A stretch of DNA of 35,079 bases from a virus. The notes under the pieces are model-generated. The model was given only the letters and a program-made list of their open reading frames with translations, did no database searches and was not told the DNA's origin. Each line of letters opens with the position of its first letter. The first letter of the stretch is position 1. Shown one piece after another: positions 2 to 34,066 of this stretch. Location of the stretch: positions 1 to 35,079 of the IMG/VR virus record IMGVR_UViG_3300010148_000045, one strand, 5' to 3'. Both the position numbers and the translations under genes were made by a program.

Positions 2-3000
2 AAAGTAGCAGAAGCTCAGGACGCAGAAGTTATTGATGTAGATAAGCTAGTAAAAAAATCTAAAGATAAGAAGGGAAAAAATTTAGAAGTAGAATTAAAG
101 AAAAATGAAACTAGCCCTATTGTTGTAGGCTCTATGGAATTGTTAAGTCCTGAAGAAATGGCTATAGTGGTTAAATATTCTGGTTTGGGAGAAAATGCAA
201 AAAGAAGAATGAATGATATATATGAGTTAGTTCAAGACCCTATTATTGCCCTAAAAGACGCTCAAAAATTAAAACTAGGAACACCTATATTTGAAAGAAC
301 TAAAGATGGAGAGTTAATTTTTGCTGGAGAATCTGTTAGTGATACAGACCAAATCATTAGAATGTTAAACAGAAATGACCTGCCTGGAGGTATGGCTTCT
401 GGAAACTATGTAGACCAACCTATTTTAGGTATTAAAAAAGGTTTTGAAATTGTAAAAAACAAAGGTAGAACAAGAGAGTTTTTAAAAGAATCCGGCATTA
501 ACAAAGTAGAAGTTCCTTTAGGTGTAAATGCAAAAATAATTAGAGATAGCATGAAAGTCGTTGGAGACGATATTGTGTTTGATGTTCAGGTTGGAAGAAG
601 TATTTATGCCTTAGATTCAAAAAATGCTGATTTGTTTTTAAAACATTACACAGCTCAACCTTTATTAAAGTATAAGTTTGAACACAATAATAAAGGAGTA
701 TTTTCTAAGCCTTTTGCTATGACAAGAATTAGAAGAAAAGCATTAAGAGCTTTAATAAGAGACGAGTCTAATGATGCGTTTCCAGCTTCGATATTAGGAG
801 ATTACAGACAGGCAATTGCTGTTATAGCTTCTGATTTGAAATACGACAAATGGTTAAAAGCTTTAAGTGCAACTCAAAATAAGTCAGGAAATCCATATTT
901 AAAACCTATTAAAGTAAAAGACTTATCTGACATTGAAATGAAACTTGTGACAGAAAGAATTCAAGATATTAGAGCTATAAGAAGCAGAACAGATTTTGTT
1001 ATAGACCAATTAGAGGGAAGCAACCTAAGACTTATAAATCCTATTACAAAAGATAACGAAGTTATAAACATAGCTGCTCCAATTATGTCTGAGTTAGGAA
1101 ACCAACTTACATCTCCTGCTGCAAAAAGTTTAGGTGGACTTATATCTGCATCAGATAGAAATATCGTGGGTAGAGTTACTAATGATATTGTTGACTTACA
1201 ACTTGCATTAGGTATGGATAAAGAAGTACTGTCTGCAAAGAAACTAGTTCCAACATTTTTAGGTAAAGCAGTTGGTTACAATCCATTTAGAAATAAGCTT
1301 GCAGAAAATTGGATTACAGGTAAAAAAGAAATAATTTTATCTGATGGAAAGTCTTATAAAGGTTTTGACGACTATTTAAAATTAGATGCTAATCCAAAGC
1401 TTATTAACAAATGGAAATCGCAAGTTAAAAAGATAAATGCAAACCCAGAAAGATATGGATACACTGCAGAAGAAATAAACTTTTTAAATTTTAGGATAAA
1501 AGCCATAGAAGGTATTAAAAGAATTATGGATGACATAGCTGGAAGAGCTTTATCTGTTGGTATACAAATGCCTGGTATGAAAAAATATTACATGCCATTT
1601 GTTATGGAAAAGCAATACAGAGATACTATATATAGCTCTATGAAATCATTAAACGAAAAAGTTTCTGACATTTTAGGAGCAGGGGTTCTTGCTAAAAATA
1701 AAGATGATATTTCAAAAAATTTAAGCGCAGCAGACAAAGAACTGTTTATCAAAGAAATTGAAGGCTGGATACAAGGATTAAACGCGTCTAAAGATAAGTA
1801 TAAAAATGGTACTGCTACAGCTTGGACTGCTACCCTGAAAAAGTTAAAAGAAACTCCTGGTAACATTGGAGAAATACCAGAGTTAGATGTTTGGTTGGCA
1901 TTAAATACATCATTGTTTAACGATGGATTTAAAAAATATGGACACTTAGAAAAGAAAAGAACATTAGGTAAAACTTCAGTAACGAATGTAGATGTTACTG
2001 CTGCTATTATGAGAAGTAAACTAGACTTGCTAGATAATAATTTAGCTACTTTGTATACAGATTATATTTTAGGCTCAAACAAAAGAATAGAACTTGTAAG
2101 AACTTTTGGAGTAGAAGGTAATCTATTTAACAGACTTTTAAATCTAGTTCCTGAAGATGATATGTTGCAAGGGCCAATACCTGGTCTTATTAAATCAAGA
2201 GAAATAACAGGTTTTGGCTTACTACCAGATGACCCTATGATAAAAGAAGGATTGCCTCCTAATCTTGTTTCTACTCAAAGAGATGCTTTGAGAGTTATTA
2301 AAGATGTTCTTACCGGAGAAAGCCAATATAGCAGGTCTCATCAACTTAGTTCTTTCTTTGAAACATCGGCAAATCTTATTTTTACAACTAAAATATCTTT
2401 AGGTACAGCTATTATTCAAAATATGTTTCAACCTTTTATATCTTACGTTCCAGACTTAGGTATTTGGAGCGCTACTAGAGGTGGTATAAATTATTTTATA
2501 GACCCTAAGGTTGGAGATTTGGTTTTAAGAGCTGGTCCTTCACAACTTTCTCTTGTTGATGATTTAGTTCCTGGTGTTCGTTCATTAAGAATTAGTTCTA
2601 CAAGAATTATAAATCCTAACGATTCACTTATTCAAAAGTTTATGAATGAATTGAGTTTAGGAAGTGCTACACAGGCTTTAGGTCAGCCATTTATGTATGT
2701 TAACTTGCAGAACAAAATATTGGCCGCAGCAGCAGCTGATGACTATATTAAAAAGATGGCTAAACTATTAACAGGTAAACAAAATTTAGGAGATAAAGCA
2801 GAATTATTTTTTGGATTGTTGACAGTTAAAGATAAACAACAATACGGTAGAAACAAACTATTTTACAGGTTTGGACTAGACCCTGATGAGGTTATTAAAT
2901 TTGCTCCTCAAATTATAAGCGGAACTTTTGGACCAAGCAAAGCAGAGCAAGCCTTTGCTGTAAAATACAAGAAAGCTCTAGAAAACTACTCACAATTATC

Positions 3001-3979
3001 TCAAGCTGGTAGAGAGTTTATGTTAGATAGTTTTTCTCAGAATGACCCTAACGCTAGACAGATAAATCTTTTTAAAAGATGGGCTAAGAGACAGGCTTTC
3101 ATGATGAAAGATATTTATGACTTTGAGATGGCTAATGGAAATTATTTAATACCTGCTACTATGGCTGGTTCAGGAGTATTCGGAGGATATTTATCAGCGA
3201 GAGGAATAGAGATTGTAAAAGATTGGGCTGCAGGAGAACAAGATATAAGAGGTGAAAAGTATCAAAGAAATATTTCATATAGAGAACCAATGCCTAAATT
3301 AAGAGATGTATATAAAGGAGAAGACAGATTTTATATGGAAGACCTGGTAAATGCGACAATTACCGGAGGTCTTTTTGGGATGGCTGGAGATATTGTTTTA
3401 GGAGACCAGCCTTTTGATGCGTTGAAATTTGCAGTTTCTCCTGCTGGATGGGGAGACCTTGAAAGAGCTGGAAGACTTTTTAATGACTTAGCTATTAATG
3501 CTCCTATGAATCAGGGAACTGATTTAAACAGAATTATAAGAAAAAATCTTAGAATAGCTGCTCAGGGAGCTGGAGGTATTCCTAACAACTTCTTTAAAAG
3601 AGTTAATTATGAACCTTGGGAAGGTCCGGTTGGTAAGATGATAGGAGAAACAAGAGCTCCTGTTCAAGATGATATTAATTTAATTAAAGCTCAAAGAAAT
3701 AGAATAGTTAGCGATGTGGTAGATTTATCTCTAAACTATAGAATTACAGAAAAGGAAAGTGTTAAGAGAAAAATAAATAATAAAATTACAGAGTGGAACA
3801 ATTCTGCCTCTGCTAATAAGTATTGGAATGGACAAGGATTAAATCCTTATGCTATATACTATGTTAGAGACATTATAGATTCAGGTAAAGTTACTGATGA
3901 ATGGATAGATAAAATGAACAGCGCAGAAGATGTTTATAAATTAAAATCCTCAGATATTATGAGACAATCAAAAAGATAA
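2..3979 (+). CDS. Large probable internal virion (ejection) protein, 5' end outside window
   Basis: The frame is open from base 2, so the first in-window ATG (134) is not the real start; it has no Shine-Dalgarno and 44 in-frame codons precede it. At least 1325 residues lie in the window. The protein is mostly helical, with a basic N-terminal part and glycine- and alanine-rich hydrophobic stretches near the C-terminus (around residues 1045-1070 and 1115-1145, counting from the ATG). I recognise no catalytic motif. Very long proteins of this sort beside structural genes in short-tailed phages are usually internal virion or DNA-ejection proteins. The role here is inferred from size, composition and position. 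It reads rightward and is followed after 10 bases by the next gene. It could also be a polyvalent protein with an enzymatic domain upstream of the window. Confidence 0.7.
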   Translation, partial: KVAEAQDAEVIDVDKLVKKSKDKKGKNLEVELKKNETSPIVVGSMELLSPEEMAIVVKYSGLGENAKRRMNDIYELVQDPIIALKDAQKLKLGTPIFERTKDGELIFAGESVSDTDQIIRMLNRNDLPGGMASGNYVDQPILGIKKGFEIVKNKGRTREFLKESGINKVEVPLGVNAKIIRDSMKVVGDDIVFDVQVGRSIYALDSKNADLFLKHYTAQPLLKYKFEHNNKGVFSKPFAMTRIRRKALRALIRDESNDAFPASILGDYRQAIAVIASDLKYDKWLKALSATQNKSGNPYLKPIKVKDLSDIEMKLVTERIQDIRAIRSRTDFVIDQLEGSNLRLINPITKDNEVINIAAPIMSELGNQLTSPAAKSLGGLISASDRNIVGRVTNDIVDLQLALGMDKEVLSAKKLVPTFLGKAVGYNPFRNKLAENWITGKKEIILSDGKSYKGFDDYLKLDANPKLINKWKSQVKKINANPERYGYTAEEINFLNFRIKAIEGIKRIMDDIAGRALSVGIQMPGMKKYYMPFVMEKQYRDTIYSSMKSLNEKVSDILGAGVLAKNKDDISKNLSAADKELFIKEIEGWIQGLNASKDKYKNGTATAWTATLKKLKETPGNIGEIPELDVWLALNTSLFNDGFKKYGHLEKKRTLGKTSVTNVDVTAAIMRSKLDLLDNNLATLYTDYILGSNKRIELVRTFGVEGNLFNRLLNLVPEDDMLQGPIPGLIKSREITGFGLLPDDPMIKEGLPPNLVSTQRDALRVIKDVLTGESQYSRSHQLSSFFETSANLIFTTKISLGTAIIQNMFQPFISYVPDLGIWSATRGGINYFIDPKVGDLVLRAGPSQLSLVDDLVPGVRSLRISSTRIINPNDSLIQKFMNELSLGSATQALGQPFMYVNLQNKILAAAAADDYIKKMAKLLTGKQNLGDKAELFFGLLTVKDKQQYGRNKLFYRFGLDPDEVIKFAPQIISGTFGPSKAEQAFAVKYKKALENYSQLSQAGREFMLDSFSQNDPNARQINLFKRWAKRQAFMMKDIYDFEMANGNYLIPATMAGSGVFGGYLSARGIEIVKDWAAGEQDIRGEKYQRNISYREPMPKLRDVYKGEDRFYMEDLVNATITGGLFGMAGDIVLGDQPFDALKFAVSPAGWGDLERAGRLFNDLAINAPMNQGTDLNRIIRKNLRIAAQGAGGIPNNFFKRVNYEPWEGPVGKMIGETRAPVQDDINLIKAQRNRIVSDVVDLSLNYRITEKESVKRKINNKITEWNNSASANKYWNGQGLNPYAIYYVRDIIDSGKVTDEWIDKMNSAEDVYKLKSSDIMRQSKR

Positions 3980-12221: not shown

Positions 12222-13961
12222 TTATATAGTATATTGACTAATCATATCATAATCGACATCTCTGTAATAAGAGACTTCTGTATCTATGACAAGTGGAAAT
12301 GTCTGTTTAAATATATCCTTATACTCAAACATCATAGTTTTGTCATTGTACTCTATAACGGAAGTTATGTTATGAAAGACATCATCATAGAATTGTCTTG
12401 CAGTGTCAGGCAACATAGCATTCTGTAATTGACTTTTTCTCTTCATAAAGTAATCCCTAGTTTCAGTCGGTATATCAAATACCTCAAAGATATTATCAAC
12501 TGACATTACTGATTCATTATGTCTCCTTCTGATATAATCAACCATAGGTTTCATATGATATGAACTATCTTTTTTGTCTAATCCAATGTATCGTCTTAGC
12601 ATCTCGGAATCTCGTCTGTACATATTTATGTCGCTAGACATTCCAATATGCCTATCATGAACTCCATCAAACCCAACATAAACATCACTATATTTGTCTA
12701 AGATTCTGCCACACTTTGAGACAATACGAGGTGGCACGACTAATGACTTGTACAATGTCGTATCTCCAAATTGATAAGGCATACCATTGTAGGCAATTTC
12801 ATTTGCAATGTCATGGCACTTGTCAATGACTTTTGTCCAAAAGATTGACCAATGCTTTATCTTGTCAGTTTGTAATGTTCCTGAATGATACCTAATCTCA
12901 ACACCTTGATTTGACTGAAAATGACAATGCCAATTCAAACCATGATATCGTTTATCATTGTATTTTTCGTGGGTATAACCTCCGTTGTCATAGTAGAAAT
13001 CTACAAAAGATTCTCTATCTGTGATATATTGGAAGTCATTGACACTTTGACTAACTGGACGACTCCACCTTTGATGACCACTACCATAGAATCTCGACTT
13101 TGGAAGCCAAGTATATATATGAGGCTCTATCATTTTTGTAAAAAATGTCAATACAGAAGCGTGTAGCCAATCGTAATCTTGGACATCTACATGCAAATGT
13201 AAACCTGTTTTGACACTTGCATAAGCTCCCCAATTATCTTGTAATGTCTGACATATTGTATTGACATCTTTTACCAATATGTCTCCTCGTCTTGGATTCA
13301 TCACTACTTCGCCTCCGTGTGGGTGCCTATGATTTGTCGTACTAGTATCACTTGTCATACGAAGTCGTCCTAGTGAATGCCACTCTTCAATGTCTGCATT
13401 TCTGCTTTTGCCAACTTGCACTCGCAAGTCGTCTTGTACTTCCGAGAAGGATTCATCTTGATAGAAGTTAGTTTCAATCTCGACGCCAATATTTCTTTTT
13501 GACTCAATCAAATAGAAAGTATCTTTATCGTACATGTCATTACTAGGATTGACAAAAGAACTTCTAGTTTCGACATACTCCTTGGACATAACTTCCCATT
13601 CAGGTGTCGCATAGCTTTGTTCATCGTAGCAAGATTCACAGACATAACCTTCTGTTCTTTCACTCCAATGAGTATCGTCTTGGTGAAGAGTATCGCCGCA
13701 ACTCTCACAATCGGTGAAGTTCTCGTGATAACAATCAGTACAATAAGAGTCGCCATGTCCATACTCGGCGTCATCTACATGAATCGTCTCCTCACAATCA
13801 TAACATTCTGTATAATTGACACTACAATTATCGCAGACAGGCGAATCATCAGTATTTGTATAACAAAAACTTGACGATGTTGATTCTTGTTCGCCACAAT
13901 CTGCACATTGGCAAAGTGATTCATTTATCTCTTGTACTACTTCTTGTCTGATTTCAGGCAT
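12222..13961 (-). CDS. Zinc-finger amidoligase (glutamine-synthetase-like COOH-NH2 ligase)
   Basis: A 579-residue protein. Residues 17-111 hold a zinc-ribbon array (Cys pairs at 17/19/22, 43/46, 53/56, 74/77, 85/88, 108/111). The amidoligase domain follows: GVEIE at 159-163, HGGEVVMNP at 215-223, ASVKTGLHLHVDV at 248-260, and GVEIRYHSGTLQTDKIKHW at 353-371. These match the Amidoligase_2 family of glutamine-synthetase-fold, ATP-dependent enzymes that join a carboxyl group to an amine. The last 150 residues are a helical, family-variable region. Its start overlaps the amidotransferase gene by eight bases, so ammonia from glutamine is the probable nitrogen source, or the two act on one substrate in sequence. 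The target (protein side chain, peptide, cell wall or other) is unknown. Confidence 0.85.
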   Translation of the reverse strand: MPEIRQEVVQEINESLCQCADCGEQESTSSSFCYTNTDDSPVCDNCSVNYTECYDCEETIHVDDAEYGHGDSYCTDCYHENFTDCESCGDTLHQDDTHWSERTEGYVCESCYDEQSYATPEWEVMSKEYVETRSSFVNPSNDMYDKDTFYLIESKRNIGVEIETNFYQDESFSEVQDDLRVQVGKSRNADIEEWHSLGRLRMTSDTSTTNHRHPHGGEVVMNPRRGDILVKDVNTICQTLQDNWGAYASVKTGLHLHVDVQDYDWLHASVLTFFTKMIEPHIYTWLPKSRFYGSGHQRWSRPVSQSVNDFQYITDRESFVDFYYDNGGYTHEKYNDKRYHGLNWHCHFQSNQGVEIRYHSGTLQTDKIKHWSIFWTKVIDKCHDIANEIAYNGMPYQFGDTTLYKSLVVPPRIVSKCGRILDKYSDVYVGFDGVHDRHIGMSSDINMYRRDSEMLRRYIGLDKKDSSYHMKPMVDYIRRRHNESVMSVDNIFEVFDIPTETRDYFMKRKSQLQNAMLPDTARQFYDDVFHNITSVIEYNDKTMMFEYKDIFKQTFPLVIDTEVSYYRDVDYDMISQYTI

Positions 13962-15009
13962 TGTCTATCTCGCTTTCTTCTCTTATCCAAGTATCGTCTC
14001 CCCACATTCGGTCGAACATAGTTTCTTCAGACGATATCTCTCCAGTGTCAGGATTGACATGAAACCAGCTATCGTCCTCCGGCTCATAAAACCAAGAGTT
14101 CGGATGAGTTTTTGTCATTTGTGCCAATTCAATAGACTCTTGGCTTTTCCATTCATTATGCCAATCGTCATTATCGTCTTCAAAGTCTATCTTTGTTTGA
14201 TTTGACAAAGTAGACCAAGCATAATTGACAGATGTCGTTGTTGGATAATTGTTAAGTTTCCATTGGTAGACTCTTGACTTATAGTCAAACAAAGATTTTT
14301 CTACATTCATTTTAATGTCGTCAAACTTCGATACATCAAAACTATATAGTGTGTTCTTATTTAAACTATAGACATCTACATTTTTAATACCTGAATCAAA
14401 TAAAGCGTCTTCTATAAAAGCAGACTCACTAGCATAAAACATTGTCTTATACTCCGAAACATAAGCTATATATAAAGGACGATTTGTTTCTCTACACAAA
14501 TGCAATACCATTGGGTTTTTCTTTACAAACGACAATGCAAAGTCGCTATCAAAATCTTTGACTGCTTCTTGTATATTGTCTTTGTCATTTATTGCTTTGA
14601 AGATAAGTTGGCTGTCTACCGGACATTGTTTGTCTAGTTTGCCTTGCATTTCTTCAATATTGTAAACGCAACCATTATGGGCGCCGACGACATCGCCGAC
14701 TCTAAATGGGTGTGCGTTTGATTTGACTATTGCTCCTTCTGTCGCAAATCGTGTATGTCCGAGAAGAATATAACTTTCGTCTTTCAATGACTTGACTGAC
14801 TGATTATACTCTTTCGTGTCTACGAATTTGCTAGACGGCAATAGTGATTTATATATCCTAGTGTTAGCACCGACTCTTGCAATACCTGACGAATGAGCGC
14901 CTCGGCTCTCGCTATCTATTGCAATATCACGCAATACCTTTTTGACAACTTTTAATTGTCGGCTAGTATAGGGCGTCGGCGACTTAGCTATTCCATAAAT
15001 ACCACACAT
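13954..15009 (-). CDS. Class II glutamine amidotransferase
   Basis: A 351-residue protein beginning MCGIYGI, with Cys2 as the N-terminal nucleophile once Met is removed. Further hallmarks are SRGAHSSG near 35-42, GHTRFAT at 84-90, AHPF near 99-102, HNGCVYN at 111-117 and the substrate-binding VDS at 131-133. This is the Ntn-hydrolase glutaminase fold of PurF and AsnB without their synthetase domains. It would release ammonia from glutamine. The C-terminal 120 residues are acidic and tryptophan-rich and may bind the amidoligase. It overlaps the amidoligase gene by eight bases. AGGAG eight bases before the ATG is its ribosome site, and a structured RNA lies just upstream. Confidence 0.9.
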   Translation of the reverse strand: MCGIYGIAKSPTPYTSRQLKVVKKVLRDIAIDSESRGAHSSGIARVGANTRIYKSLLPSSKFVDTKEYNQSVKSLKDESYILLGHTRFATEGAIVKSNAHPFRVGDVVGAHNGCVYNIEEMQGKLDKQCPVDSQLIFKAINDKDNIQEAVKDFDSDFALSFVKKNPMVLHLCRETNRPLYIAYVSEYKTMFYASESAFIEDALFDSGIKNVDVYSLNKNTLYSFDVSKFDDIKMNVEKSLFDYKSRVYQWKLNNYPTTTSVNYAWSTLSNQTKIDFEDDNDDWHNEWKSQESIELAQMTKTHPNSWFYEPEDDSWFHVNPDTGEISSEETMFDRMWGDDTWIREESEIDNA

Positions 15010-15038
15010 AGTCTAATCTCCTATTTTCGTTAATATAC

Positions 15039-15053
15039 CCTGTCTTGTACAGG
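15039..15053 (-). other. Small hairpin in amidotransferase leader
   Basis: CCTGT and ACAGG form a 5-base-pair stem with a 5-base loop between the three-way-junction element and the AGGAG site. There is no T-run, so it is not a terminator. It may act as a spacer or switch helix of the upstream RNA. Confidence 0.35.
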
Positions 15054-15063
15054 CTAATTCTTT

Positions 15064-15144
15064 GCGACGAATAACAACCGGTGCCGAAAGGAGTAGCACC
15101 CAGACATATCGACAATTTTGTCTGTATTGACTATTACTCGTCGC
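15064..15144 (-). ncRNA. Three-way-junction leader RNA before amidotransferase gene
   Basis: On the minus strand P1 pairs 15144-15134 with 15074-15064 (11 pairs, one G-U). P2 pairs CAGACA with TGTCTG (15124-15119 with 15106-15101). P3 pairs GGTGCT with GGCACC (15100-15095 with 15085-15080, one G-U), directly abutting P2. The same DNA read on the plus strand gives A-C mismatches where the minus strand has G-U, so the fold favours the amidotransferase mRNA. The P3 loop contains CTCCT, complementary to the AGGAG at 15023-15019. The shape resembles a riboswitch or translational control element; no ligand or known class is recognised. Confidence 0.55.
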
Positions 15145-15149
15145 TAACA

Positions 15150-15482
15150 TTATCTACAACCTACCATTCTGACATATTTCATTGTTCTGTCTGAACGATT
15201 ATGACTTGGTTGATATAAACCACAAAAGACATTTACTTCGTGTCCATTGAAATTGTCATATCGGCGTCTCATAAACCATTTATTAGTATTGGTTTTAATG
15301 TTCTTTCTAATTCTTTTTGTCATTTTAATAGTTTTTAGTCTACTATCTGTAAATCTCTTTCTGTACGCCTCCACTAGTTCGTTATGTCTTTCGACACCTT
15401 TACCATTTAGTCGTCCTAGCTTGTATAGTTTCCTATAACATCTTATAACGAATTTGGCGTTTTCTTGTTCTTGATTAATCAT
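15150..15482 (-). CDS. Small basic unknown protein
   Basis: A 110-residue, very basic protein rich in Arg, Lys and Tyr. The N-terminal 50 residues are helical; residues about 50-75 form a lysine/arginine-rich patch suited to nucleic acid binding. No family is recognised. Its ATG overlaps the TGA of the 56-residue ORF upstream, so the two are coupled. It ends five bases before the structured RNA of the amidotransferase leader and may share that transcript. Confidence 0.65.
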   Translation of the reverse strand: MINQEQENAKFVIRCYRKLYKLGRLNGKGVERHNELVEAYRKRFTDSRLKTIKMTKRIRKNIKTNTNKWFMRRRYDNFNGHEVNVFCGLYQPSHNRSDRTMKYVRMVGCR

Positions 15483-16072: not shown

Positions 16073-16217
16073 TTTATCTTTTCCCTTCTGACAAACCCGC
16101 CGAAATCGTCGTGAATGTCTTTATTTTTAGATATACTTTCATGCCCTTAAATTAGCATATTTGAGCCGATTTACCTATAACTATTTTGACTCAGGTTAAT
16201 TATTTTGTCGGGGGTAT

Positions 16218-16244
16218 AGAGCTAGACTTGCAGAGTCTAGCTCT
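16218..16244. repeat. Inverted repeat IR1, left flank of moron-like gene
   Basis: A perfect 11-base-pair inverted repeat, AGAGCTAGACT, TGCAG loop, AGTCTAGCTCT, preceded by GGGGTAT. A near copy lies at 16908-16943 on the other side of one gene, differing at one stem pair by a matching change on both arms. No T-run follows on either strand, so a simple terminator is unlikely. Confidence 0.75.
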
Positions 16245-16312
16245 GACTTCGAGTCGGGCTGAGCCGTGTTGATAAAATCATAAAAATTGTTGAAAAATAA
16301 TAGTTCTTTTTG

Positions 16313-16340
16313 TTTGGAATATTGCCCAGAATTTTATACA
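16313..16340 (+). promoter_or_regulatory. Possible promoter of moron-like gene
   Basis: TTTGGA (16313-16318), a 16-base spacer and TATACA (16335-16340), ending seven bases before the ATG. The -35 match is modest. The ATG has no ribosome site, so this again suggests a leaderless transcript. The rest of the 275-base gap (16073-16347) holds the inverted repeat at 16218 and no convincing gene. Confidence 0.4.
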
Positions 16341-16347
16341 TTCTTTT

Positions 16348-16800
16348 ATGTCGAAAAATACAATAGACAAAGGTATGGAGGCGAAATTTATCGCAAAAGG
16401 TTTCTCTCCTGAAGAACTCTTAGCTATGGGGCTAAAGATTTCTGAAGCTAGTACCACAGAAGGGCGTGTTGTTGCGAATGCGTCGGAGGTTTTGCGAATC
16501 GCAAATGACAATCTTGAAAAAGATAAGAACAACAAAGAAGCGTTAGAAACTAAAAATGATATGAAAGCGCTTCTAGCTCAATTCGATGAAAAAGAAATCG
16601 AAAAAAATGATAATCAAATAAATCCTACTCTTGTTAATTCCATTCTCGGGAAATATTCTGACAAGTTTCAAGATAAAGCAGTTAAAAAAGTTGAAGGCAA
16701 AAAATGGAATGTTCGAACTTTGCCTCGATATAGCGCCAAGTTTGAGAATATTGATTTAGAAGTTCTCGGACCGGTTGCAGATTCTGATAAAACAGAATAG
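16348..16800 (+). CDS. Unknown protein in self-contained moron-like cassette
   Basis: A 150-residue, helical, charged protein I do not recognise. Residues 1-40 include GFSPEELLAMGLKISEAS; 40-85 look like a long helix pair; the C-terminus is basic then acidic. It is the only rightward gene between leftward units and has its own promoter-like sequence and a strong terminator. It is bracketed by two related inverted repeats. That layout is typical of a moron, an independently expressed inserted gene. Possible roles include host modulation, exclusion or virion modification; the sequence does not tell which. Confidence 0.7.
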   Translation: MSKNTIDKGMEAKFIAKGFSPEELLAMGLKISEASTTEGRVVANASEVLRIANDNLEKDKNNKEALETKNDMKALLAQFDEKEIEKNDNQINPTLVNSILGKYSDKFQDKAVKKVEGKKWNVRTLPRYSAKFENIDLEVLGPVADSDKTE

Positions 16801-16815
16801 AAAGGTAAATCATAA

Positions 16816-16846
16816 ACTCCCCTCGGCTTAGGAAGTCGGGGGGACT
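16816..16846 (+). other. Hairpin between moron-like gene and its terminator
   Basis: ACTCCCCTCGGC pairs with GTCGGGGGGACT (one mismatch, two G-T pairs) around a TTAGGAA loop. It lies 15 bases after the stop codon and two bases before the terminator stem, forming a tandem hairpin. It may protect the 3' end or slow RNA polymerase. Confidence 0.55.
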
Positions 16847-16848
16847 CT

Positions 16849-16883
16849 AAGCCCGAATACTAGCTATTCGGGCTTTATTTTTT
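16849..16883 (+). terminator. Rho-independent terminator of moron-like gene
   Basis: A perfect 11-base-pair stem (16849-16859 with 16865-16875) with a 5-base loop, followed by a T-rich run to 16883. It should end rightward transcription of the single upstream gene. Confidence 0.9.
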
Positions 16884-16907
16884 CAATCGTCAAGTTTTCC
16901 CAGGGGG

Positions 16908-16943
16908 TTAGAGCTGGACTGAGGGACGAGAGTCCAGCTCTAA
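16908..16943. repeat. Inverted repeat IR2, right flank of moron-like gene
   Basis: A perfect 13-base-pair inverted repeat, TTAGAGCTGGACT and AGTCCAGCTCTAA, with a 10-base loop, preceded by GGGGG. It matches IR1 at 16218-16244 except for an A-T to G-C pair change in the stem and a different loop. The gene at 16348 lies between the two copies. Confidence 0.75.
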
Positions 16944-17000
16944 TACTTAACAGGTTGGACAGCTTGGTCGAGCTGCCGCGCTCGCCTATAGATAGTAGAC

Positions 17001-17035
17001 AAAAAAATACCCCAGGGTTGTTAGCCCCAGGGTAT
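17001..17035 (-). terminator. Rho-independent terminator of two-gene leftward unit
   Basis: On the minus strand ATACCCTGGGG and CCCTGGGGTAT form an 11-pair stem (two G-U) around a 7-base loop, followed by seven Ts. It starts seven bases after the stop of the 32-residue membrane peptide. It stops leftward transcription before the moron-like cassette. Confidence 0.85.
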
Positions 17036-17041
17036 CTATTG

Positions 17042-17140
17042 TTATTTGCGGTCAAAGTAAACACTTATTGCTATTGGTCCAATCACCGCTATAAACACTA
17101 CTAAGTTAATCATTATATGTTCAAAACTACCATATTCCAT
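17042..17140 (-). CDS. 32-residue single-span membrane peptide
   Basis: A small ORF from the ATG at 17140 with an AAGGA site seven bases upstream. Residues 9-28 (IMINLVVFIAVIGPIAISVY) form one transmembrane helix with an acidic N-terminal side and a DRK end. It lies between an intercistronic hairpin and a strong terminator, so it is clearly a transcribed unit. Such peptides can be host-modulating, superinfection-excluding or holin-like. The choice cannot be made from sequence. Confidence 0.65.
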   Translation of the reverse strand: MEYGSFEHIMINLVVFIAVIGPIAISVYFDRK

Positions 17141-17158
17141 TTTATTTCCTTTCATTGT

Positions 17159-17182
17159 GGCAGGGGCATCATAGCCCCCGCC
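17159..17182 (-). other. GC-rich intercistronic hairpin
   Basis: GGCGGGGGC and GCCCCTGCC (one G-U) form a nine-pair stem with a 6-base loop between the 86-residue gene and the membrane peptide gene. No T-run follows, so it is more likely an attenuating or mRNA-stabilising structure than a full terminator. Confidence 0.55.
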
Positions 17183-17196
17183 GTTATTATTAAGAG

Positions 17197-17457
17197 TTAA
17201 AATACCTCTTCTTCTGTACCCATGGCCTCATGAATCTCTTCTTTTTCTGCATCGCTAAAACCACATGCATATAAGAAGGCATTCATATCAAAGCGTGGGT
17301 TGATTTCCTGGAAGACTGGAATCAATAACGCAACTATGGAAGTAGCGGAGCCAATCATACGCAATGGCTTTGCTCTACCAGTTCCACGTTCGCCTTCTTC
17401 AGAGAAGGGAGTGAAACAGTGAGCTATTGCTTCGAAGTCTTTCTTCGTCATACTCAT
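17197..17457 (-). CDS. Small conserved-type phage early protein
   Basis: An 86-residue protein from the ATG at 17457. An AAAGGA site nine bases upstream favours this start over one 36 bases earlier. The segment NPRFDMNAFLYACGF near the C-terminus, followed by an acidic tail, resembles a short motif (N-RFD---F--ACG) seen in many small phage proteins of unknown function. Residues about 35-50 are hydrophobic. It is the first gene of a two-gene leftward unit with its own promoter, next to the control region, so early expression is likely. Confidence 0.7.
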   Translation of the reverse strand: MSMTKKDFEAIAHCFTPFSEEGERGTGRAKPLRMIGSATSIVALLIPVFQEINPRFDMNAFLYACGFSDAEKEEIHEAMGTEEEVF

Positions 17458-17488
17458 AACATGTCCTTTCTTTATGTGTTTGATTAAT

Positions 17489-17497
17489 ATCATACCA
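17489..17497 (-). promoter_or_regulatory. Extended -10 promoter of two-gene leftward unit
   Basis: On the minus strand TGGTATGAT gives an extended -10 box (TG-n-TATGAT). A perfect TTGACA lies at 17526-17521 but is too far (26 bases) to be its partner. Expected start near 17482, 25 bases before the ATG. Confidence 0.5.
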
Positions 17498-17528
17498 CAA
17501 CTTACATAGTATAAATGTAAATGTCAAG

Positions 17529-17583
17529 AAAAAAAAAGAAATAAATTAAAAAAAATATAAAAAGATGCGCACTGTGCGCACTG
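17529..17583. repeat. A-rich tract with tandem 9-mers, possible origin element
   Basis: About 37 bases of almost pure A/T with a strong purine bias are followed by two perfect tandem copies of TGCGCACTG (17566-17574, 17575-17583). An easily melted tract beside tandem repeats, between divergent transcription units, is what a replication origin or regulator-binding site often looks like. No initiator gene is identified. Confidence 0.45.
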
Positions 17584-18008
17584 TTAGCACAATTATTACA
17601 ATAATAAACCAAAATCCAAATTTTCAACCAAATTTATAAAATCCAATGACAGAAAAGACCCGACCCGTTTATGGAAACAAAAGCCACGCACAAAATCCTG
17701 CGATTTTTTCAACAAAGGTTGGAATTTCGGGATAAAACTGGTGAGGTGGTAAAATTCGACGACTAGAATAATTTTGGAAAAAATTTTTCGATTGGACCCT
17801 CTCTAGAACACCGAGTATTATGTAGGAAATAGATTTAATATTCTATGTTATTCAAGAGCAACGAGCATTAGTGTTTTTTTTCGTCCTTCGGACTGTTAAA
17901 GTTACCCTGTTTGTCTTACTTGAGTCAAGTTATTTTGTATTTATATCGATTTATAGAGCATTAGAATCTAGAACATTGAGACGTCGTGCGATTTTTTTTA
18001 AAAAATAT
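17584..18008. other. Non-coding control region with spaced repeats
   Basis: About 425 bases without a convincing gene. TCTAGAACA-YY-GAG occurs at 17802-17815 and 17967-17980, and GAGCATTAG at 17863-17871 and 17956-17964, in the order A-B-B-A as direct copies. A 13-base palindrome ACTTGAGTCAAGT lies at 17918-17930; its arms hold a minus-strand TTGACT and a plus-strand TTGAGT (followed after 16 bases by TATATC at 17942). T8A6T at 17992-18006 leads into the promoter at 18009. No tRNA cloverleaf was seen. Confidence 0.5.
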
Positions 18009-18048
18009 TTGACTTGTGTAGGAATATTTAATTAATTTGCATACACAA
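18009..18048 (+). promoter_or_regulatory. Rightward promoter with overlapping dyad operator
   Basis: TTGACT (18009-18014), a 17-base spacer and TTAATT (18032-18037) form a plausible promoter, directly after an A/T tract that may act as an UP element. A perfect inverted repeat, TTGTGTA (18014-18020) and TACACAA (18042-18048), brackets the -10 region and start point; its spacing fits a dimeric repressor. The first gene starts at 18068 after a GGGAG site. Confidence 0.55.
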
Positions 18049-18067
18049 TTAACGATATGGGAGTATT

Positions 18068-31501: not shown

Positions 31502-34066
31502 ATGCCTAGGCAGTCTTTACAATTAAACGACTTTAGCGGAGGACTTAATACCAAGTCCTCTCCTAGGGATATTGCGCCTAATCAGGTAACAAAAGCAAAC
31601 AATGTTGTTTTGTCTAATCCTGGCCTTGTATTGTCTTCATCAGTATCTTCAGCCAAGCTAGCAACAGCTAATGCACCTAATGAGCAAACAACTGCAGGAT
31701 ATGGTGCGTTTATGTTTAACAGTCAATATAATACGGATATAAGTGGTACTGAAGGTAATGCAGTTCAAGTATTTGCATTTCCAGAAAACAATGCATCTGG
31801 AACAAGCACAAAGATTTTAACATACGCTAGAAACTTTGGAAGAACTGGAGTTTTTTTACTAAACGAAGATACACGTGATGCACAGATTGATATGCAAACT
31901 GAAAATGAAGTGTTGCCAGTATATTATTATGTAGATGGCAGTTTGTTTGTATCAGATGAAAAAGTAGTAGAAGAAACTACTAATGAACAACCAAGGCGTT
32001 TAGTATATGTAAAAGATGCTACTAGATTAGGCACTGATATATCTAGTACAAATAAATGGGTAGACACTACGTTAAAAATAGAAACTAGCGATACTCAGTT
32101 TGAAGATATATCAAATGCAGATACTTTTAGCACTAATCCATCTGCTGACGGTGAGTTCAGCATTATAGTTCAGACAGACCCAACATTAGATTCTCAAGAT
32201 TTTGGTACGATTGTTAAAACAGGTTCAACAGAAAAACTTGTAACAACTACAAACCCTAATGAAACAAATCCAGACCAAACAGCTGATATTAGACTTACAG
32301 ACACAGTTATTTACTTAACACTACAAGGCATAGATGATAATTTGTCTTCACAATCTTTAACATACGCAGTCACTGTAGATGCAACTACTACGAATGTATA
32401 TTCTGCTGGTGCATTTAATAACACTAATATGATGGGTAATATTATTTACATAAATAACGAAGCTATGAGAGTAAGAAAAGTTAGTGCAATTAATGGTTCA
32501 TCAACAGGCGATATATTGGAAGTAACAGTAGATAGAGCTGTATTTACAGGTACACCATTAGAGCACGCAGGTACTTCTGAGGTGCAGGTAGCTATAGAGA
32601 CAAATATTACAGTAACTGGTGGTGGATGGGAAGCTGGTTCTTATGAGTTTTGTCATACAGTAGTTGATTTGCAAGACAATGAAACACTGCCTCAAACACC
32701 TAAATCAGATTTATTTGCAATTACATCTGGTGCATACTTTACTGGTGTTAAGTTTAGAATAAAAGATGCTGGAACTTGGAGAATGAACGAAAAAGGTGTA
32801 AGAGTTTACACAAGAAAGAAAGATGGTAATGGTAGGTGGATATTGTTTTTAGATGTAGACTACCAAAGAGGAGTAAGAAAAAATTTATTTGAAGACTATC
32901 AAGCGTTATCACAGGTAGACACATTATATCATGAAAACTCTACAGCTTTTGATATTGTAAACCCATCACTAGATACCTATGAAAGTATTAACGGATATTC
33001 ACAAGATGAAGAAAGCATAGACATTGGAACAGGTAATGCAACAGGAACAGCTGGTGGATTTAAAGCAGCTACTGTTTGTGCTAGAAGAGCATGGGTAGCT
33101 AATGTAAAGAAGAACGGAGAAGTATATGATGATAGAATTTATTATAGTCCAGTAAACAGATTTGCAACATTTCCTGATAGTTATTACTTAGATATTGGTA
33201 TTAGCGATGGAGATTCTTTTACAGCTTTACATAGCTTAGGAAACAGGTTGCTAGCTTTCAAACAAAAAAAATTATATGTTATTAATGTATCCTCTAGTTC
33301 TGATGCTGGTTGGTATCTAGAAGCAGAATACGATGGTATGGGTTGTATATTTCAGAATGCAGTATCTAAAACTCCTTTTGGTGTATGTTGGGTAAATAGA
33401 AATGGAGTCTATATCTTTGATGGGCAAAGCGCTCCAAAAGAATTGACATTAAGATTAGATGACAATTTATGGCAATCTGGACAAGAGCTAAGCGATGCTT
33501 TATTAAAACCTTCTATAGCATATGAGCCAAAATATAAACAATTATATGTTTTACAAGACTCTGCAATGACATCAAACAGTGGTGTAGATACGGAAGATAA
33601 AATTTTCTGTTATGACTTTGCAACGCAAGGTTGGACCACAAGAGCGTGCGTAGGAAGTGCGGATGTATCTAATTTTGTAGAATCATTTGATGGTGTATAC
33701 TTCTTTAAACATTCAGATAATAAAATACATTTAGTAAGTAATGACCAAGGAACTGAAAATATAGATTTAAGAACAAAAGATATAGATTTTGGTAATCCAG
33801 GTTTAGTAAAAAGAGTAAACAGAGTATTTGTAACAGCAAAGGGTAATGGAACAAATTTAACTTTAAGTTATGCAAATGATGGAGAGTCTTCTTATCAAGA
33901 CTTATCAGCTCAAGCCTTAGGAACAGAATACACAATAAAAGAATTTACAATAAACACGGCAGACAGAAATTGCGAATCAATGGCTTTTAAAATAACTGCT
34001 AATGGTTCTATTACCATAAATGACATCAATATAGATTACAGACAAACTAACAAGAGACCTTCATAA
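31502..34066 (+). CDS. Tail nozzle / stabilisation-like protein
   Basis: An 854-residue protein starting LQLNDFSGGLNTKSSPRDIAPNQVTKANNV, a pattern typical of phage tail nozzle or head-stabilisation proteins (T7 gp12-like or P22 gp10-like). The middle is beta-rich, and later repeats (LGNRLLAFKQKKLYVINVSSS, VCWVNRNGVYIFDGQ, DGVYFFKHSDNKIHLVS) look like propeller blades. It would close the portal vestibule and bind fibres. The start has no ribosome site of its own beyond the coupled 9-residue ORF. Confidence 0.75.
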   Translation: MPRQSLQLNDFSGGLNTKSSPRDIAPNQVTKANNVVLSNPGLVLSSSVSSAKLATANAPNEQTTAGYGAFMFNSQYNTDISGTEGNAVQVFAFPENNASGTSTKILTYARNFGRTGVFLLNEDTRDAQIDMQTENEVLPVYYYVDGSLFVSDEKVVEETTNEQPRRLVYVKDATRLGTDISSTNKWVDTTLKIETSDTQFEDISNADTFSTNPSADGEFSIIVQTDPTLDSQDFGTIVKTGSTEKLVTTTNPNETNPDQTADIRLTDTVIYLTLQGIDDNLSSQSLTYAVTVDATTTNVYSAGAFNNTNMMGNIIYINNEAMRVRKVSAINGSSTGDILEVTVDRAVFTGTPLEHAGTSEVQVAIETNITVTGGGWEAGSYEFCHTVVDLQDNETLPQTPKSDLFAITSGAYFTGVKFRIKDAGTWRMNEKGVRVYTRKKDGNGRWILFLDVDYQRGVRKNLFEDYQALSQVDTLYHENSTAFDIVNPSLDTYESINGYSQDEESIDIGTGNATGTAGGFKAATVCARRAWVANVKKNGEVYDDRIYYSPVNRFATFPDSYYLDIGISDGDSFTALHSLGNRLLAFKQKKLYVINVSSSSDAGWYLEAEYDGMGCIFQNAVSKTPFGVCWVNRNGVYIFDGQSAPKELTLRLDDNLWQSGQELSDALLKPSIAYEPKYKQLYVLQDSAMTSNSGVDTEDKIFCYDFATQGWTTRACVGSADVSNFVESFDGVYFFKHSDNKIHLVSNDQGTENIDLRTKDIDFGNPGLVKRVNRVFVTAKGNGTNLTLSYANDGESSYQDLSAQALGTEYTIKEFTINTADRNCESMAFKITANGSITINDINIDYRQTNKRPS

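Follow-up and report, generated by a model that had tools for sequence, protein, structure and literature searches.

We found that the 5' leader of a class II glutamine amidotransferase (GAT-II) gene in an uncultured virus contains a three-way-junction RNA (minus strand, 15144-15064), hereafter the GAT-leader RNA, and that the same RNA stands upstream of GAT in dozens of uncultured viral contigs. Its status as a genuine conserved RNA is, in our assessment, almost beyond doubt. Comparisons of sequence and predicted structure make it very likely that this is a new family, matching no catalogued RNA and acting as a cis-regulatory element, which probably controls how much enzyme is made.

The window analysed here is the whole 35 kb stretch (35,079 nucleotides) of the viral record, and carries genes for a terminase, a portal, a head protein and a DnaB helicase. 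Two neighbouring genes on the minus strand form the operon of interest:

13954-15009, minus strand: class II glutamine amidotransferase (GAT-II) gene, 351 aa (GATase_6, 2.1e-15, and alignment)
12222-13961, minus strand: amidoligase (Amidoligase_2) gene, 579 aa (1.3e-15)

The start of the amidoligase gene overlaps the stop of the GAT gene. The GAT protein begins with MCGIYG, with the N-terminal catalytic cysteine of class II enzymes, and the motifs MCGIYG, GHTR, HNGCVYN and CPVDSQ were kept in 15/15 aligned GAT proteins. For phage phiEco32, it has been suggested that an amidoligase-GATase pair alters the cell wall and so counters superinfection (as cited in PMC10580990), which is a suggestion and not a result. 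A prophage-based search for a host returned two remote MAG matches only. Elsewhere in the window, two long proteins (134-3979, 1281 aa; 31502-34066, 854 aa) were without a PHROGs match, and approximately 2 kb separating the leftward gene block from the rightward one (16073-18067) held few convincing genes; this stretch is a likely location of promoters, an origin or other RNAs.

Folding of the minus strand of 15010-15149 gave a minimum free energy of -41.2 kcal/mol, compared to -28 ± 3.36 for shuffled sequences (z = -3.93; 0/200 shuffles as good), while the plus strand of the same interval was unremarkable (z = -1.12). The elements of the leader, in the direction of transcription of the GAT gene, are:

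15129-15144, minus strand: 5' strand of P1, GCGACGAGUAAUAGUC (fold and pairing in homologs)
15125-15128, minus strand: J1/2, AAUA
15101-15124, minus strand: P2 hairpin, CAGACA...UGUCUG, 6 pairs (fold and two-sided changes in homologs)
15110-15113, minus strand: GUCG within the P2 loop, invariant in homologs having P2
15080-15100, minus strand: P3 hairpin, GGUGCU...GGCACC, 6 pairs, the last U-G (fold and two-sided changes)
15086-15092, minus strand: UCCUUUC within the 9-nt P3 loop, invariant; UCCU is complementary to the Shine-Dalgarno core AGGA
15064-15079, minus strand: 3' strand of P1, GGUUGUUAUUCGUCGC (fold and pairing in homologs)
15059-15063, minus strand: AAAGA downstream of P1, kept in most relatives
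15039-15053, minus strand: small second hairpin, CCUGU-ACAAG-ACAGG, between the junction and the ribosome site
15018-15022, minus strand: Shine-Dalgarno AGGAG of the GAT gene, inside the conserved start region AGGAGAUUAGACUAUG

P1 comprises 16 continuous pairs (15144-15129 with 15079-15064), four of which are G-U, and not the 11 pairs given in the initial annotation. The abutting P2 and P3 helices of six pairs each that it described were reproduced in the minus-strand fold, and the complementarity it noted between CUCCU of the P3 loop and AGGAG of the GAT gene was confirmed. J2/3 and J3/1 are empty, with P3 directly adjoining P2 and P1, and in most relatives a hairpin of other sequence takes the place of the small second hairpin.

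All homologs are assembled viral contigs. Searches with the GAT protein yielded 50 related viral loci and then 78, with many of these on the same contigs, and the junction was carried by nearly all relatives with at least 60% identity. A covariance model built from 13 leaders (MAFFT alignment) scored the window copy at 80.9 bits and found one copy per related locus, always before GAT. Standard pairs occupied 94.7% of cells among 36 aligned copies, with two-sided changes in 23 of the 29 pairs and a fall to 29-52% paired in slid-partner controls; since these 36 copies were fitted to the covariance model, their pairing counts lean towards the model, but the MAFFT alignment underlying it was already 91% paired, with two-sided changes in 17 pairs. 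Two-sided changes were found in every pair of P2 (6/6) and P3 (6/6) and in 11/16 pairs of P1, the outer half of which was paired in 100% of cells and the inner half in 90%. Under a phylogenetic null, in which substitutions were re-thrown along the tree and E was calculated over all column pairs, five pairs of the structure had E ≤ 0.05, and none outside the structure reached that level (best 0.3). Thus, compensatory changes in P1-P3 and a homologous leader in relatives with the same genes, on which the initial annotation had made its proposal depend, were both present. G-U or U-G cells outnumbered A-C or C-A cells in the homolog alignment (93 vs. 9), indicating selection on the minus-strand (sense) transcript; this bears out the earlier assignment of the structure to the GAT mRNA.

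Upstream neighbour genes vary between groups of RNA-bearing viruses, which indicates that the RNA goes with GAT, and the amidoligase was present at every RNA-bearing locus of sufficient length. P1 and the start codon were separated by exactly 135 nt in three diverged groups, although the junction itself was 81, 79 or 80 nt long, and by 166-169 nt where the leader has an additional hairpin. Scanning 2.9 million viral contigs for the loop patterns produced numerous chance matches and no covariance-model score outside GAT loci, including 43 + 36 other contigs with the loop patterns at non-GAT loci, though the patterns needed exact loops and a given P1 end, such that a divergent copy elsewhere could be missed. 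Among cultured phages with GAT and a COOH-NH2 ligase, six regions showed no comparable leader, the match abutting or closely trailing another gene in most of them, and a DNA search of the GAT-plus-leader stretch against cultured phages gave no match. The GAT-leader RNA has two features expected of a cis-regulatory leader: it always lies on the sense strand ahead of the same homologous gene, and its secondary structure is conserved with compensatory changes. Uniqueness of the start region was rejected as evidence, as the region is unique in the window yet found before other genes elsewhere; the form AGGAGA(A/T)TAGACTATG also lies upstream of unrelated genes in other viruses, so that its conservation alone is no evidence for regulation. 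Separately, we observed AGGAGA(A/T)TAGACTATG in unrelated contigs (L209, L210, L213 and others) before genes beginning MAISRxQLxKELxPGLNALFGLEY, as well as before other genes, and it may act as a strong start signal in general.

Eleven loop bases were invariant in total: GUCG of the P2 loop was unchanged in 31/31 distinct homologs with P2, and UCCUUUC of the P3 loop in 35/35 distinct homologs. The last two bases of J1/2, UA, were 91% conserved. Relatives that have lost P2 (L096, L097, L101, L125) keep P1, P3 and UCCUUUC, and distant relatives with other arrangements (L099, L102, L105-L113) keep a CCUUU-like stretch (UUCCUC in L105), many distant relatives also having a downstream hairpin with a GGUCG-type loop.

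Three further observations concern variant leaders. A hairpin with a AGGUCGAA-like loop is located roughly 40-70 nt before GAT in L095, L097, L099, L102, L103 and L106-L113, which are without the GUCG loop of P2, as if the GUCG element had moved elsewhere in the leader. Between the upstream gene and the junction of L014 (2780-2860; the same contig as L072 and L191) lies an extra element of ~84 nt, GGCGACGAGG...CUACGUCGCCAAAGAAUU, with a P1-like helix and an AAAGA tail and without UCCUUUC, which resembles a tandem copy that has decayed or diverged. Within the last 100 nt upstream of GAT in L115 (GAT at 2501), the Shine-Dalgarno region GGACAGGAG is complementary to CUGUCC of the P1-like 3' strand, so that the helix and the ribosome site could exchange strands.

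P1 starts 2-6 nt past the upstream stop codon in most homologs, and no strong promoter match was detected on the minus strand close to the RNA. A 16-pair helix at this position, in an operon without a strong promoter match nearby, could also shield or set the 5' terminus of the GAT-amidoligase transcript, for instance once an RNase has cut it, without acting as a switch, and such a stabilising or processing role would yield much the same pattern overall. We nevertheless regard it as improbable, as it leaves unexplained both the 11 invariant loop bases and the retention of P3 and its loop after the loss of P2.

The loops could alternatively contact each other and thereby hold the fold together, as L2 and L3 do in purine riboswitches, with the P2 loop additionally pairing with GACUA at the start codon. 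The two loops cap adjacent helices of equal length, and many P2 loops hold UAGUC, the complement of GACUA in the start region, but UCCUUUC is unchanged in the relatives without P2, which excludes loop-loop contact as the sole cause of loop conservation. Pairing with the start codon is broken by UGUCG in W, L060 and the L074 group, where the loop becomes UGUC without a matching change, and L085, L095, L106 and L115 retain GUCG although their start regions lack GAC; this part was largely refuted by the lack of covariation, and we assign the explanation as a whole a very small probability.

The initial annotation proposed that the P3 loop masks the ribosome site. Any UCCU is expected to be complementary to a Shine-Dalgarno sequence, and the 3' tails of many 16S rRNAs share the sequence UCCUUUC. 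Complementarity between loop and Shine-Dalgarno comprised 4-6 contiguous pairs in 43/43 distinct leaders with UCCUUUC, with some reaching only 4; in the window the pairing amounts to -6.9 kcal/mol, with the Shine-Dalgarno ~65 nt downstream, and across leaders the P3 loop ranked at a median of the top 2.8% of leader 9-mers against its own start region. These pairs, together with the CCUUU-like segment kept in divergent architectures, would be accounted for if the loop paired with the GAT Shine-Dalgarno and blocked ribosomes under the control of a metabolite such as glutamine, as in a riboswitch, and marine phages with known glutamine riboswitches exist (PMC9004378). However, start regions of other genes on the same contigs bound the loop about as well (on average 0.32 of them, compared to 0.19 for a generic anti-Shine-Dalgarno), and neither a preference of the loop for its own Shine-Dalgarno nor covariation between the two was found, the loop staying constant across leaders that differ at position -14. 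The heptamer still ends in UUUC in the W, L060 and L074 groups, where AU or AC precedes AGGA and leaves it without a Shine-Dalgarno partner, and the models of glutamine riboswitches gave no match. The complementarity behind the proposed masking therefore stands, and pairing with the Shine-Dalgarno may be used, whereas conservation of the loop extends beyond what pairing needs and is not fixed by it; a metabolite-controlled riboswitch working through this pairing is doubtful.

We lean towards a reading in which translation is the regulated step and a factor reads the loops, the step being suggested by the position of the RNA. The sense strand between the junction and GAT had no terminator-like site, which points to translation. 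Under this mechanism, the leader RNA would control translation of the phage GAT-II/amidoligase operon in cis, with the apical loops of P2 (GUCG) and P3 (UCCUUUC) serving as the recognition surface for a putative trans-acting factor. A protein would be the likelier factor, rather than a small metabolite, given that the invariant bases occupy exposed loops instead of the junction core, although the RNA may sense a metabolite directly. Binding of the factor would change ribosome access to the GAT start codon, and the amidoligase would follow GAT translation by coupling through its overlapping start. A plausible off state would have UCCUUUC paired with the Shine-Dalgarno. A further reading, in which a novel class of phage riboswitch or protein operator displays the anti-Shine-Dalgarno heptamer UCCUUUC on one arm of its junction and the GUCG loop on another, senses the nitrogen or infection state and gates a virus-encoded amide-transfer pathway, can be put forward only tentatively, with a low probability.

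To our knowledge, only a small number of structured regulatory RNAs have been described in phages. The GAT-leader RNA is uncatalogued, well supported by covariation and associated in uncultured viruses with one auxiliary gene only, and any signal it senses, once found, would show when the virus needs the amidotransferase-amidoligase pathway.

We compared the GAT-leader RNA to known RNA families. No Rfam 15 family matched the window or 18 homologous loci at gathering score, such that the database search proposed in the initial annotation returned no family, and the glnA (RF01739) and Downstream-peptide (RF01704) models had no match in 14950-15250 up to E 5. glnA-type glutamine riboswitches have been reported in marine phages (PMC9004378, PMC2864571). 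The glnA and Downstream-peptide RNAs resemble the GAT-leader RNA as structured leaders associated with nitrogen-related genes, but in addition to matching neither model, the latter has its invariant bases in two apical loops. Phage-associated candidate leader RNAs also include manA and wcaG (PMC2864571), which are similarly orphan structured RNAs in 5' leaders of phage metabolic genes, with ligands unknown when they were described; the GAT-leader RNA differs in having no Rfam match and in being tied to one gene only. Purine riboswitches are likewise three-way junctions, with two hairpins with conserved loops and a pocket formed in the joining strands, but they gave no match and J2/3 of the GAT-leader RNA is empty. 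In autoregulatory leaders of ribosomal-protein and phage-protein genes (translational operators), the mRNA folds compactly beside the ribosome site and exposes conserved loops. No family model matched, and these leaders share with the GAT-leader RNA a structure placed before the gene that it would control.
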